NCBI RefSeq assembly: GCF_004804355.1
Contig: NZ_SRWZ01000001.1
Span: forward strand, 62,001-126,000
Source: Cognatitamlana onchidii
GTDB taxonomy: Bacteria; Bacteroidota; Bacteroidia; Flavobacteriales; Flavobacteriaceae
Direction of reading: 5' to 3'
DNA: 64,000 bases
Below are positions 38,037-40,844 of the stretch, piece after piece. The position numbers were made by a program, and so were the translations under genes. Every line of letters begins with the position of its first letter. The first letter of the stretch is position 1. A model generated the notes under the pieces. That model ran no database searches. It saw only the letters and a program-made list of their open reading frames with translations, and was not told the DNA's origin.

Positions 38037-38044
38037 TAGCTTTG
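38037..38044 (+). promoter_or_regulatory. TAnnTTTG -7 box for the leader and MFS operon
   Basis: TAGCTTTG, perfect -7 box, 22 bases before the leader ATG at 38066; expected start near 38051. No TTTG at -33. Confidence 0.5.
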
Positions 38045-38065
38045 AACTTTCAAAAAGAAACAAAA

Positions 38066-38146
38066 ATGCGTCATAACGTCACAATTTATAAAAAACAATC
38101 GACCTCTTTAATGAGAAAGAGTCGGACTTGTCTTGTATTGTGTTGA
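38066..38146 (+). CDS. Putative 26-residue leader peptide
   Basis: An open frame starting MRHNVTIYKK and ending RKSRTCLVLC before TGA. A second ATG at 38111 gives an 11-residue version (MRKSRTCLVLC). It starts just after a -7 box, ends 27 bases before a terminator hairpin, and its SRTC codons are the very bases that can pair with the terminator's 5' arm. Two Cys codons occur in the last seven positions. A coding role is inferred from this geometry; there is no recognised family. Confidence 0.5.
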   Translation: MRHNVTIYKKQSTSLMRKSRTCLVLC

Positions 38147-38202
38147 TGTGAACTATTATATTACAATATCTTAAAGTCCGACCTAACCGTCGGACTTTTT
38201 TG
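38101..38202 (+). promoter_or_regulatory. Putative transcription attenuator ahead of the MFS operon
   Basis: Three mutually exclusive pairings are visible. P1: GAC-c-TCTTT (38101-38109) with AAAGAGTC (38116-38123). Antiterminator: GTCGGACTT (38121-38129) with AAGTCCGAC (38174-38182). Terminator: AAAGTCCGAC (38173-38182) with GTCGGACTTT (38189-38198), 6-base loop, then TTT TG TTTTT. Segments 38121-38129 and 38189-38197 are identical 9-mers. A ribosome on the leader ORF could decide which forms. The terminator alone is near certain; the switch is inferred. Confidence 0.6.
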
Positions 38203-38270: not shown

Positions 38271-39494
38271 ATGAAAACGCTATTTAACAACTATCTTAAC
38301 ACCTTTAAAGGCCTCTCCAAAGAGGTATGGTGGCTTTCTCTAATTACATTAATTAATAGAGCAGGTACCATGGTCATTCCCTTTCTGTCCTTATATCTAA
38401 ATAAAAGTTTAAACTTTTCATTTAATGATATAGGCTGGGTAATGAGCGCCTTTGGTTTAGGGTCGGTTTTTGGTTCTTGGCTAGGCGGAAAACTAACGGA
38501 CATTATTGGCTATTATAAAGTCATGGTTTCTAGTTTATTGATAACAGGTGTACTTTTTATTACGCTTCAATTTTTATCGACATTCGAAACTTTCTGTATT
38601 GGTATTTTTCTTGTTATGCTGGTTGCAGACAGTTTTCGTCCTGCCATGTTTGTTGCTTTAAGTGCCTATAGTAGACCAGAAAATAAGACAAGATCTGTTA
38701 CATTAATAAGACTTGCCATAAATCTTGGGTTTTCAGCTGGTCCTGCTATTGGTGGTTTTATTATTACCATGTTAGGCTATGGCGGTTTGTTTTGGATTGA
38801 TGGTATTACTTGTATTGCTGCAACTATGGTTTTAATAAAGGTTTTAAACCCTAAAAAAACGAAAACTCTAGATGATGTAACCGTTAATCATCCTAAATCG
38901 GCCTATACAGACAAGGCTTTTTTAATATTTTTAGTTGCTATGGTGATATTCGGTATTGTATTTTTACAATACTTTTCGACTATGCCCTTATACTACAAAC
39001 ACGTTCATATGTTAAGTGAATTGAATATTGGTATTCTTATGGGTATGAATGGCTTTATAATCTTTGTTTTTGAAATGCCTTTAATTAAATGGTTAGAAAA
39101 CACAAATTTTACGAAAACGGGATTGATGCTTTTTGGTGGCATACTAACAGGACTAAGTTTTATCATTTTAAATATCACATCTTGGTCGGGTGTTTTAGTA
39201 ATAGGTATGCTTCTCATGACTTTTGGAGAAATGATTGCGTTCCCTTTTTCTAATGCTTTTGCCATGGATAGAGCAAAAAAAGGAAATCAAGGTGAATATA
39301 TGGCTTTGTACTCCATCGCGTTCTCTATGGCCCATATTTTTGGACACAATGCAGGAATGCGAATGGTGGACTCTATTGGTTTTAATAACACTTGGTATAT
39401 AATTACCCTACTTGCTGGACTTTGCGTATTTTTACTCTTCATTTTGAGTACGTATTTAAACTCAAAAAAGAAATTAAAAATTGCAAAGCTTTGA
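38271..39494 (+). CDS. MFS transporter
   Basis: 407 residues, about twelve membrane helices. The loop between helices 2 and 3 has GSWLGGKLTDIIG, a close match to the MFS A-motif GxLaDrxGrk. It looks like the drug-efflux branch, but the substrate cannot be read from sequence. It is preceded by the leader attenuator and its TGA overlaps the TTG start of the YpdA gene, so expression is probably linked to both. Confidence 0.88.
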   Translation: MKTLFNNYLNTFKGLSKEVWWLSLITLINRAGTMVIPFLSLYLNKSLNFSFNDIGWVMSAFGLGSVFGSWLGGKLTDIIGYYKVMVSSLLITGVLFITLQFLSTFETFCIGIFLVMLVADSFRPAMFVALSAYSRPENKTRSVTLIRLAINLGFSAGPAIGGFIITMLGYGGLFWIDGITCIAATMVLIKVLNPKKTKTLDDVTVNHPKSAYTDKAFLIFLVAMVIFGIVFLQYFSTMPLYYKHVHMLSELNIGILMGMNGFIIFVFEMPLIKWLENTNFTKTGLMLFGGILTGLSFIILNITSWSGVLVIGMLLMTFGEMIAFPFSNAFAMDRAKKGNQGEYMALYSIAFSMAHIFGHNAGMRMVDSIGFNNTWYIITLLAGLCVFLLFILSTYLNSKKKLKIAKL

Positions 39495-40459
39495 GTAAAG
39501 AATTAGATATTGTTATTGTAGGTGGTGGACCTATTGGCATTGCTTGCGCCTTAGAGTGTAAAAAAAGAAACTGGACATACGTGGTAATTGAAAAAGGAGC
39601 GCTAACCAACTCCTTATTCAACTACCCAAAAAACATGACCTTTTTCTCAACATCCGAAAAGCTTGAGATTGATGACATTCCTTTTATTAGTAATAACCCT
39701 AAACCAAACCGCGATGAAGCCTTAGAGTATTACAGGAGAGTTACAACAACAAACAACCTAAATATTCATTTGTATGAAGAGGTTACATCTATAAACAAGG
39801 AAAAATCCAAGTTTACTACCATTACAAGTAAAACTTCTTACCACTCAAAAAAGGTTATAATTTCTACAGGGTTTTATGACATACCAAAACTATTAGATGT
39901 TCCTGGAGAATCATTAGACAAAGTAAGCCATTATTATAAGGAAGCGCACCCATATACCTTACAAGATGTTATTGTGGTAGGAGCCAGTAATTCCGCGGTC
40001 GATGCAGCCTTAGAAATTTACAGAAAAGGCGGAAGGGTAACTATGGTAATAAGAGGCGAAGAAATTGGAGATCGCGTAAAATATTGGGTGAGACCAGACA
40101 TTATTAACCGCATTGAAGAAGGCAGTATAACAGCTTATTATAACGCTAATATAGTGTCTATTTCAGATCATGAGGCGACCATACGAACTCCGAACGGAGA
40201 AATTACGATTCCTAATGATTATGTTATTGCTTTAACCGGATATCTCCCGAACTTTAAGCTCTTGACAGATAACCATATTGAGCTTTCTAAAGATGATAAA
40301 ATGATTCCGAAATACCATTCAGAAACCATGGAATCTAATGTAAAAGGCTTGTATTTAGCAGGTGTTATTTGTGGAGGTAAGGAAACTCATAAATGGTTTA
40401 TAGAAAATTCGCGAATGCATGCTAAAAAAATAGCATTACATATAGAAAAGTCTTTATGA
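39491..40459 (+). CDS. YpdA family bacillithiol disulfide reductase
   Basis: 322 residues from TTG 39491, which overlaps the MFS stop (TTGA). FAD loop IVGGGPIGIACALE right at the start and NADPH loop VVGASNSAVDAALE near residue 165; no CxxC redox pair, as in YpdA. The longer frame back to 39392 lies within the MFS gene and has no FAD-type start. YpdA reduces bacillithiol disulfide with NADPH, so this points to a bacillithiol-using organism. Confidence 0.85.
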   Translation: MSKELDIVIVGGGPIGIACALECKKRNWTYVVIEKGALTNSLFNYPKNMTFFSTSEKLEIDDIPFISNNPKPNRDEALEYYRRVTTTNNLNIHLYEEVTSINKEKSKFTTITSKTSYHSKKVIISTGFYDIPKLLDVPGESLDKVSHYYKEAHPYTLQDVIVVGASNSAVDAALEIYRKGGRVTMVIRGEEIGDRVKYWVRPDIINRIEEGSITAYYNANIVSISDHEATIRTPNGEITIPNDYVIALTGYLPNFKLLTDNHIELSKDDKMIPKYHSETMESNVKGLYLAGVICGGKETHKWFIENSRMHAKKIALHIEKSL

Positions 40460-40460
40460 T

Positions 40461-40844
40461 ATGAATTTAAACCAAATTACTGTCCCTTCTTTAAACATTG
40501 AAAAGGCTACAGAATTTTACAAAAAATTAGGCCTACTATTAATTGTAGATGCACTGCCTAGATACGTTCGGTTTAAATGCCCAGATGGAGATAGTACGTT
40601 CTCGATTCATAAGGTAGATGATTTACAGAGTAATAATAATCTGCAAATCTACTTTGAAGACGATCAACTAGATCAAAAAGTAAAGGCGCTTCAAAAGAAA
40701 GGAATTCAGTTTACAGAATTACCTAATGATAAGCCATACTTATGGCGGGAGGCAAGATTAAAAGATCCCGATGGAAACCATTTAGTTTTATACCATGCCG
40801 GTGAGAATAGAAAGAACCCGCCTTGGCGCATTAAACAATCATGA
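40461..40844 (+). CDS. VOC family (glyoxalase/bleomycin-resistance-like) protein
   Basis: 127 residues, one base after the YpdA stop. Two beta-alpha-beta-beta-beta modules: TVPSLNIEKATEFYKKLGL at the start and ARLKDPDGNHLVLYHAGENR at the end, with the closing Glu-type metal position less clear. The metal ligands are not certain, so glyoxalase, thiol-transferase or binding protein are all possible. Co-transcription with MFS and YpdA suggests a role in detoxification. Confidence 0.82.
   Translation: MNLNQITVPSLNIEKATEFYKKLGLLLIVDALPRYVRFKCPDGDSTFSIHKVDDLQSNNNLQIYFEDDQLDQKVKALQKKGIQFTELPNDKPYLWREARLKDPDGNHLVLYHAGENRKNPPWRIKQS

Follow-up and report, generated by a model that had tools for sequence, protein, structure and literature searches.

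A conserved leader ORF with competing RNA structures upstream of an MFS transporter gene of Flavobacteriaceae, probably a ribosome-controlled attenuator

Introduction

In the genome of Cognatitamlana onchidii, an MFS transporter gene stands behind a short ORF and an intrinsic terminator, and this arrangement raises the question of whether a ribosome on the short ORF decides if the gene is transcribed, in which direction such control would work and what cue it would follow. An initial annotation of the window (the whole analysed stretch, 64,000 nucleotides of contig NZ_SRWZ01000001.1) had proposed such a switch ahead of an MFS-YpdA-VOC operon, with a drug or cysteine shortage as the possible cue. 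In the accessible part of the literature, mef/mel, ermK and vmlR are described as transcription attenuators and tetQ of Bacteroides as a translation attenuator (PMC5418344), and for Flavobacterium psychrophilum leader-peptide attenuation was inferred for amino-acid operons (PMC9723704). Our comparison of related loci indicates that a ribosome-controlled transcription attenuator probably governs the MFS efflux gene and, in this genome, also the YpdA and VOC genes. The kind of attenuator is known; this instance, its spread and the composition-like signature of its peptide were not met in literature searches of partial coverage, which also returned no described flavobacterial leader of this pump.

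Results

Layout of the locus

The features of the locus are collected in Table 1. Its TAnnTTTG box we take to be a putative -7 promoter box of the Bacteroidota type. The 26-codon ORF and the terminator (AAAGTCCGAC...GTCGGACTTT, 38173-38198) both lie where the initial annotation had placed them. The nine bases GTCGGACTT occur twice, within the ORF (38121-38129) and in the 3' arm of the terminator (38189-38197), and AAGTCCGAC (38174-38182) can pair with either copy. The copy in the ORF had been read as the Ser-Arg-Thr codons; it is present as described but lies one base out of codon phase, these codons occupying 38120-38128. A hairpin noted at 38101-38123 as overlapping the copy forms the tip of a longer predicted hairpin (hairpin A, 38080-38142), which spans most of the ORF. 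The 171-nt leader has a folding z of -3.83, equalled by one of 200 shuffles, and the 9-base copy in the window ORF is better than in all 200 codon shuffles of this ORF.

Table 1. Features of the leader and of the genes downstream, in window coordinates.
Feature	Position	Strand	Basis
Predicted -7 promoter box TAGCTTTG	38037..38044	+	Read in sequence; TAnnTTTG kept in relatives
Leader ORF, 26 aa and stop, MRHNVTIYKKQSTSLMRKSRTCLVLC	38066..38146	+	ATG at 38066, stop 38144-38146; conserved
Hairpin A, the ORF folded on itself with S2 sequestered	38080..38142	+	Predicted; arms coevolve
S2 GTCGGACTT, antiterminator 5' arm within the ORF, copy of terminator 3' arm	38121..38129	+	Pairs with 38174-38182
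TATTGT, lower antiterminator stem, 5' side, last ORF codons	38136..38141	+	Pairs with 38163-38168
ACAATA, lower antiterminator stem, 3' side	38163..38168	+	Pairs with 38136-38141
T5 AAAGTCCGAC, terminator 5' arm, common to terminator and antiterminator	38173..38182	+	Pairing in 80 leaders
T3, terminator 3' arm GTCGGACTT and T run	38189..38201	+	Sequence, and pairing in 80 leaders
MFS transporter, regulated gene	38271..39494	+	Pfam MFS_1, E 2.2e-48
YpdA-type bacillithiol disulfide reductase, second operon gene here	39461..40459	+	TIGR04018, 478.6 bits, cutoff 339.9
VOC (glyoxalase/bleomycin-resistance) protein, third gene	40461..40844	+	Pfam Glyoxalase, E 1.1e-8

Among proteins of known structure, the MFS protein matches seven PDB sequences at E 0.001, every one of them NorA (best E 3.5e-9), the YpdA-type protein matches the solved Bdr structure at E 6.6e-79, and the structure matches of the VOC protein are weak only. 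In the C. onchidii genome the MFS protein has a single match at E 0.001, and the covariance model of the leader described below has one strong match (E 6.8e-22), its next one (E 0.001) not being located upstream of an MFS gene. Rfam 15 gave no match in the window, the best candidate in the leader (E 0.13) scoring 22.9 bits where 47 is the gathering score; the leader is a conserved RNA element that this collection does not contain.

Conservation upstream of close MFS orthologs

A search of species genomes gave 80 loci with an MFS ortholog, the best 80 of 306, and these make up the close set. An ATG leader ORF ending shortly upstream of the terminator was found in 79 of these orthologous loci, the remaining locus (L081) having the same frame with a TTG start, and the intrinsic terminator was present in all 81 upstream regions, that of the window included. 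For its TTG start L081 was left out of the alignment, so that the 80 aligned leaders are those of the window and of L002-L080; their ORFs measure 24-28 codons, a length limit set by hand having decided the start codon in L008, L015, L037 and L052. The TAnnTTTG box precedes the ATG of 76 of the 80 close leaders (gap to the ATG 17-24 nt, median 20) and that of 34 of 45 diverged ones (gap 11-42 nt). The spacer after the leader stop occurs in all three lengths modulo 3 in the close set, and alternative frames are open across the ORF span in just 17 and 19 of 148 leaders (80 close, 45 diverged and 23 others, the latter two sets being defined below). The short ORF ahead of the gene is maintained as a coding frame and can be predicted to be translated.

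The genes that follow the leader in the 80 loci are less constant, with MFS and VOC in 33, MFS alone in 21, MFS-YpdA-VOC and MFS-YpdA in 12 each and MFS-VOC-YpdA in two, counts in which five loci are short downstream. YpdA hence follows the MFS gene in 26 and VOC in 47 of the 80 loci. Since the composition of the operon varies in this way, the leader belongs to the pump and not to YpdA. As a side observation, four leaders (L005, L007, L010 and L078) contain a second, overlapping ORF of 17-18 codons in another frame, which starts inside the leader and ends just past the leader stop; the Trp codon alone may account for it.

Competing structures in the close set

All 80 leaders form the nine terminator pairs, and 21 cells are double-changed, a number reached in none of 500 shuffles. 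For the antiterminator, 88.6% of cells are paired, compared with 22-47% when its arms are slid; S2 is paired to 38174-38182 in 92.8% of cells and the lower stem (38136-38141/38163-38168) in 82.4%, but the covariation of the antiterminator within this set does not exceed that of shuffles. Hairpin A is paired in 78.5% of cells (33.4-57.5% when slid), and its covariation score is higher than in all 500 shuffles, while the number of pairs changed on both sides is unexceptional (68 of 500). The leader ORFs also fold better than their own codon shuffles (z averaging -1.65 and lying below -1 in 52 of 80). An RNAalifold consensus of the close alignment recovered the terminator alone, and therefore hairpin A and the antiterminator were tested as named structures and by swapping of arms among leaders.

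Diverged leaders and coevolution of the arms

A covariance model was built of hairpin A and the terminator, the antiterminator being left out of it. The model matched 216 of 299 genomes of the family at E 0.01, many of the weak matches looking like chance. Among 60 matches that were fetched, 47 stand upstream of an MFS ortholog with 45-73% identity, and 45 of these leaders could be parsed to give the diverged set; L149 and L152 were excluded, with no good terminator or no long ORF parsed, and use of the most upstream ATG made the ORFs of L117, L126 and L154 over-long. In the 45 leaders both peptide and terminator are altered, one terminator being, for example, ACGTCCCGGC. The third set comes from 40 MFS orthologs without a listed model match, the model matches listed extending to E about 1e-4; these orthologs were chosen by eye among the orthologs listed. 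Their upstream regions, again judged by eye, gave 23 accepted leaders with a terminator (the copies in L177, L202 and L205 being weak), four with a terminator only and 13 with neither.

Arms of S2 and T5 fit their own partner better than partners swapped among leaders, by tests that correct only partly for relatedness. In the diverged set the own pairing scored 14.27 and the swapped pairing 12.13 (sd 0.37), and none of 5000 swaps was as good; the same held when one leader per distinct terminator was used (32 leaders, 0 of 5000) and for the 23 leaders without a listed match (0 of 20000). As a control, the 5' third of the ORF showed no signal against T5 in the diverged leaders (309 of 2000 swaps as good) or in the 23 (17551 of 20000). 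The close set gave a small edge (own 19.66, swapped 19.21; 52 of 5000). Taken singly, the copy beats codon shuffles at p < 0.05 in 63 of the 80 close leaders and in only eight of the 45 diverged ones. For the lower antiterminator stem, 23 of 5000 swaps were as good as the own partner in the close set and 4518 of 5000 in the diverged set, where this stem is unsupported. Swapped arms of hairpin A were as good in none of 5000 cases in the diverged set, in 72 of 5000 in the close set and in 107 of 20000 among the 23 leaders. The diverged value for hairpin A is biased because these 45 leaders were found with a model that contains it along with the terminator; the antiterminator test is free of this bias since the antiterminator is outside the model, as is the set of 23, which have no listed match.

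Comparison of the leaders shows that selection acts on the ORF and the terminator as well as on hairpin A and on the pairing of S2 with T5. The coevolution of S2 with T5 argues for an antiterminator that would exclude the terminator and overlaps the ORF, a signal that is weak in the close set alone. The leader ORF with its competing terminator and antiterminator, as first described, recurs and coevolves in relatives, which speaks more than anything else against a chance arrangement; we also looked for loss of the ORF or of the 9-base copy among them, and the feature survived this examination.

The leader peptide

In the first half of the peptide (codons 2-13) pN/pS is 0.59 in frame, compared with 1.26 and 0.86 in the other frames, whereas in the second part the in-frame value is 0.94 and the other frames give 0.52 and 1.04; selection thus acts on the peptide in the first half and mainly on the RNA in the second part. 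The absence of selection at the amino-acid level in the second part, together with the coevolution of the alternative structures, would suit a translation-independent RNA switch that is bound by a protein or a ligand and in which the ORF is incidental. We consider this very unlikely, as such a switch would not account for a frame kept in 148 leaders with the other frames closed in most of them, nor for the frame-specific pN/pS and composition of the first half, and no Rfam family matches the leader, a result that also bears on a T-box, a riboswitch or a protein-bound antiterminator.

The composition of codons 2-14 differs from that of the control frames, although these counts come from related leaders and are hence not independent. 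Ala, Asp, Glu, Gly, His, Leu, Met and Pro together make up 6%, 6% and 11% in the three groups of leaders, compared with 25-40% in the other two frames, this set of eight having been named after the data were seen and single members being low also in one or other control frame. In all three groups Thr is abundant at the same codons (13-16%, as against 4-8% in the other frames) and so is Gln; Lys, Ile, Tyr and Val are also common there, though not consistently above both control frames. Among G-initial codons, 160 of 193 encode Val. Thr is found in codons 2-14 of 141 of the 148 leaders, Lys in 139, Val in 137, Ile in 137 and Trp in only 49.

No residue is fixed in place across the groups, no run of one codon occurs in the aligned peptides, and no fixed arrest motif was found in the leader peptides. 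The classical macrolide motif R/K-X-R/K was considered as a stall site in the first half and rejected, being rarer in the first 14 residues than expected (two of 80 close leaders, 22.5 when shuffled; nine of the 68 others, 14.5 when shuffled). Anywhere in the peptide the motif occurs in 43 of the 80 and 32 of the 68, and the K-S-R of the window occupies codons 18-20, a position from which a ribosome would hide S2. It is conceivable, if rather doubtful, that the arrest signal is a composition instead of a motif, with codons 2-14 avoiding the eight residues and favouring Thr and Gln; the leader would then be a family-wide sensor of translation slowed by a class of ribosome inhibitor or by an environmental compound that this pump exports, through a nascent-chain property new to description.

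An attenuator that senses uncharged tRNA for cysteine, tryptophan or threonine would be consistent with the frequent Cys, Trp and Thr codons, Thr above all, and YpdA acts on a thiol made from cysteine. Such amino-acid attenuation is nevertheless unlikely, with no residue position fixed across groups and no single-codon run, with Cys at codon 26 in just six of 80 close leaders and Trp in the first half of a minority, and with a gene that resembles efflux pumps and not a biosynthetic enzyme. An operon attenuator of the trp/his type in particular was dismissed, as the run of codons for the regulated amino acid is not conserved across groups. Cysteine shortage, the nutritional cue originally suggested from two Cys codons and the bacillithiol enzyme, does not hold up: codon 26 is Trp in 35 and a stop in 30 of the 80 leaders, codon 22 is Cys in 32, and 14 of the 148 leaders have no Cys. 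A ribosome held at codon 22 or 26 would in any case cover the copy wholly or partly, and YpdA, as its occurrence above shows, is no constant partner of the leader.

Ribosome position and the proposed switch

We modelled the effect of ribosome position by placing a ribosome on one codon after another, hiding 31 bases for it, and by folding the RNA at the stage when the terminator 3' arm is still to be made. For the window, this masking model gave an antiterminator probability of 0.95-0.99 with the ribosome at codons 1-14 (0.99 at codons 9-14), 0.66 at codon 15, 0.30 at codon 16 and 0.01-0.29 beyond. The mean probability drops at codons 14-16 in the 80 close leaders and about one codon earlier in the 45 diverged ones, and in both sets it climbs back to 0.3-0.4 at the final codons; with the ribosome on the very last one it is below 0.3 in 36 of the 80 and 29 of the 45. 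A ribosome up to about codon 14 would allow the antiterminator, and one at codons 16-21 would block it. The initial annotation had held that the direction of control could not be deduced; because of the position of the S2 copy in the ORF it can be inferred, and the folding model predicts that a ribosome held early means ON and a ribosome passing on means OFF.

We infer that ribosomes translate the leader in vivo and that their position sets the outcome, as follows. RNA polymerase would start just downstream of the TAnnTTTG box and transcribe the 26-codon leader, on which a ribosome would begin translation. In normal translation the ribosome would pass codon 15 and cover S2 and the end of the ORF, leaving T5 free, so that the terminator would form and the operon would be OFF. 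A ribosome held within about the first 14 codons would instead cover the left arm of the ORF hairpin, which would release S2 to pair with T5 and TATTGT to pair with ACAATA; with S2 and T5 paired the terminator would be blocked and the gene of the NorA-like pump would be read.

At equilibrium, without a ribosome and with T3 not yet made, the antiterminator reaches a probability of 0.97 in the window, with a mean of 0.78 in the close and 0.47 in the diverged set, and a stall in codons 6-13 lifts it by over 0.2 in 14 of the 80 close leaders and in 24 of the 45 diverged ones. This ribosome-free state is the weak point of the proposed switch. Since the ribosome-free window is already at 0.97, a stall adds almost nothing there, and an untranslated default of OFF would require hairpin A to win kinetically. 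Either hairpin A, which is formed first, would keep the ribosome-free leader OFF kinetically, or absent initiation would also be an ON signal. The preference of the ribosome-free window for the antiterminator and the lack of a known inducer would agree with a constitutive attenuator, that is, a leaky terminator kept for low-level expression that senses nothing. This is quite unlikely in our opinion, as a constant leak needs neither a coevolving antiterminator nor a selected peptide.

Discussion

The cue and known systems

Returning to ribosome control, we lean towards a ribosome-targeting compound that is exported by the pump as the likeliest cue; this is a guess, made because it fits an efflux-type gene and the known precedents, and as a guess we also prefer it to slow translation in general. 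Shortage of one amino acid is an unlikely cue. In our best reading, which is drawn by analogy, the mechanism would work like the mef/mel, ermK and hflXr attenuators.

In the accessible part of the sources, mef/mel (msrD) of Streptococcus is likewise a leader-ORF transcription attenuator upstream of an MFS efflux gene (PMC5418344, PMC10314930). It belongs to another phylum and answers to macrolides, and the likeness drawn here is one of layout; unlike in mef/mel, the present leader ORF itself holds an arm of the antiterminator and is predicted to fold as a long hairpin. The excerpted description of rli80-hflXr of Listeria monocytogenes likewise has a small ORF within alternative terminator and antiterminator structures and a resistance gene downstream, but that ORF has 14 codons for amino acids and carries an RLR arrest motif, whereas R/K-X-R/K is present in the first 14 residues of 11 of our 148 leaders, with about 37 expected from shuffling (PMC6310831). 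In attenuators of the ermK type, so far as the consulted part of the source describes them, a ribosome stalled in the leader by a drug likewise favours the antiterminator; there, however, the gene confers macrolide resistance and the cue is known, while the cue here is a candidate only (PMC5418344).

The same partial source places tetQ, a drug-resistance attenuator of the same phylum, in Bacteroides, where it controls translation, whereas the present locus has an intrinsic terminator (PMC5418344). The toiL uORF of E. coli, as outlined in the available part of its description, senses several drugs and resembles our proposal in that ribosomes stall on it at more than one site, depending on the drug, and in that it forms a hairpin with RNA further downstream, but it acts on a toxin-antitoxin operon, through translation initiation and Rho-dependent termination (PMC12121999). 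Macrolide leaders with a +X+ motif (ermD/hflXr/tlrB type), among which the tlrB leader carries RYR in the accessible text (PMC6851288), have R/K-X-R/K at the stall site, and the present leaders mostly lack it in their first 14 residues. The structured 5' regions of F. psychrophilum come from the same family; in the part of that work available to us they are named for amino-acid operons and no MFS leader is named (PMC9723704).

If the proposed mechanism is true, many members of a large marine and soil family carry an inducible pump with a built-in sensor of translation, and its cue could reveal natural compounds that these bacteria face. The 148 leaders, with a peptide that drifts while the pairing is kept and the composition stays similar, would then permit a direct inquiry into nascent-chain stalling.

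Distribution of the element

By sequence comparison, the leader arrangement appears widespread in its bacterial family. An MFS ortholog at E 1e-95 is present in 172 of the 299 family genomes. Apart from the window's own, 28 of the 29 strongest model matches lie in loci with an MFS ortholog, and of 42 matches listed between E 1.3e-12 and 5.1e-6, 39 of the 40 fetched precede one. None of the 60 fetched matches convincingly places the leader before another kind of gene; 13 are not upstream of an MFS ortholog, and 12 of these have E-values of 7.6e-6 to 0.001. The thirteenth, L141 (G276:C5:16215-16350; E 1.9e-7), is followed by an ORF of 1156 aa that is not an MFS gene, and no ATG leader was parsed in it.

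The 29th of the strongest matches (L112:1501-1642, genome G124; E 3.3e-22) is an orphan leader with terminator, without the MFS-YpdA-VOC operon. Its neighbours are those of the window, two lipoprotein-like genes on one side and an AsnC/Lrp regulator on the other; it is an apparent deletion of the operon with the leader left behind. In L097 and L107 (matches 1501-1646 and 1501-1643; E 4.9e-25 and 5.7e-23), leaders closely resembling those of the close set precede MFS genes only 50-53% identical to that of the window, as if leader and MFS gene had different histories. In the otherwise typical leader L152 (G013:C15:644907-645043), the ORF stops at codon 17, upstream of the S2 region.

Two distant MFS homologs within the family (46-47% identity) have upstream regions without the leader. 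Across the class, 30 of 149 sampled genomes carry an MFS homolog at E 1e-60. Among 18 upstream regions of homologs outside the family (39-60% identity), the leader was not found in 17, and one (L217) has a plausible leader and terminator. On plasmids only distant MFS homologs occur (seven records, 24.5-49.1% identity), including homologs of 49% identity on plasmid records of Persicobacter (H1, CP012860.1) and Aureibacter (H2, NZ_AP025308.1).
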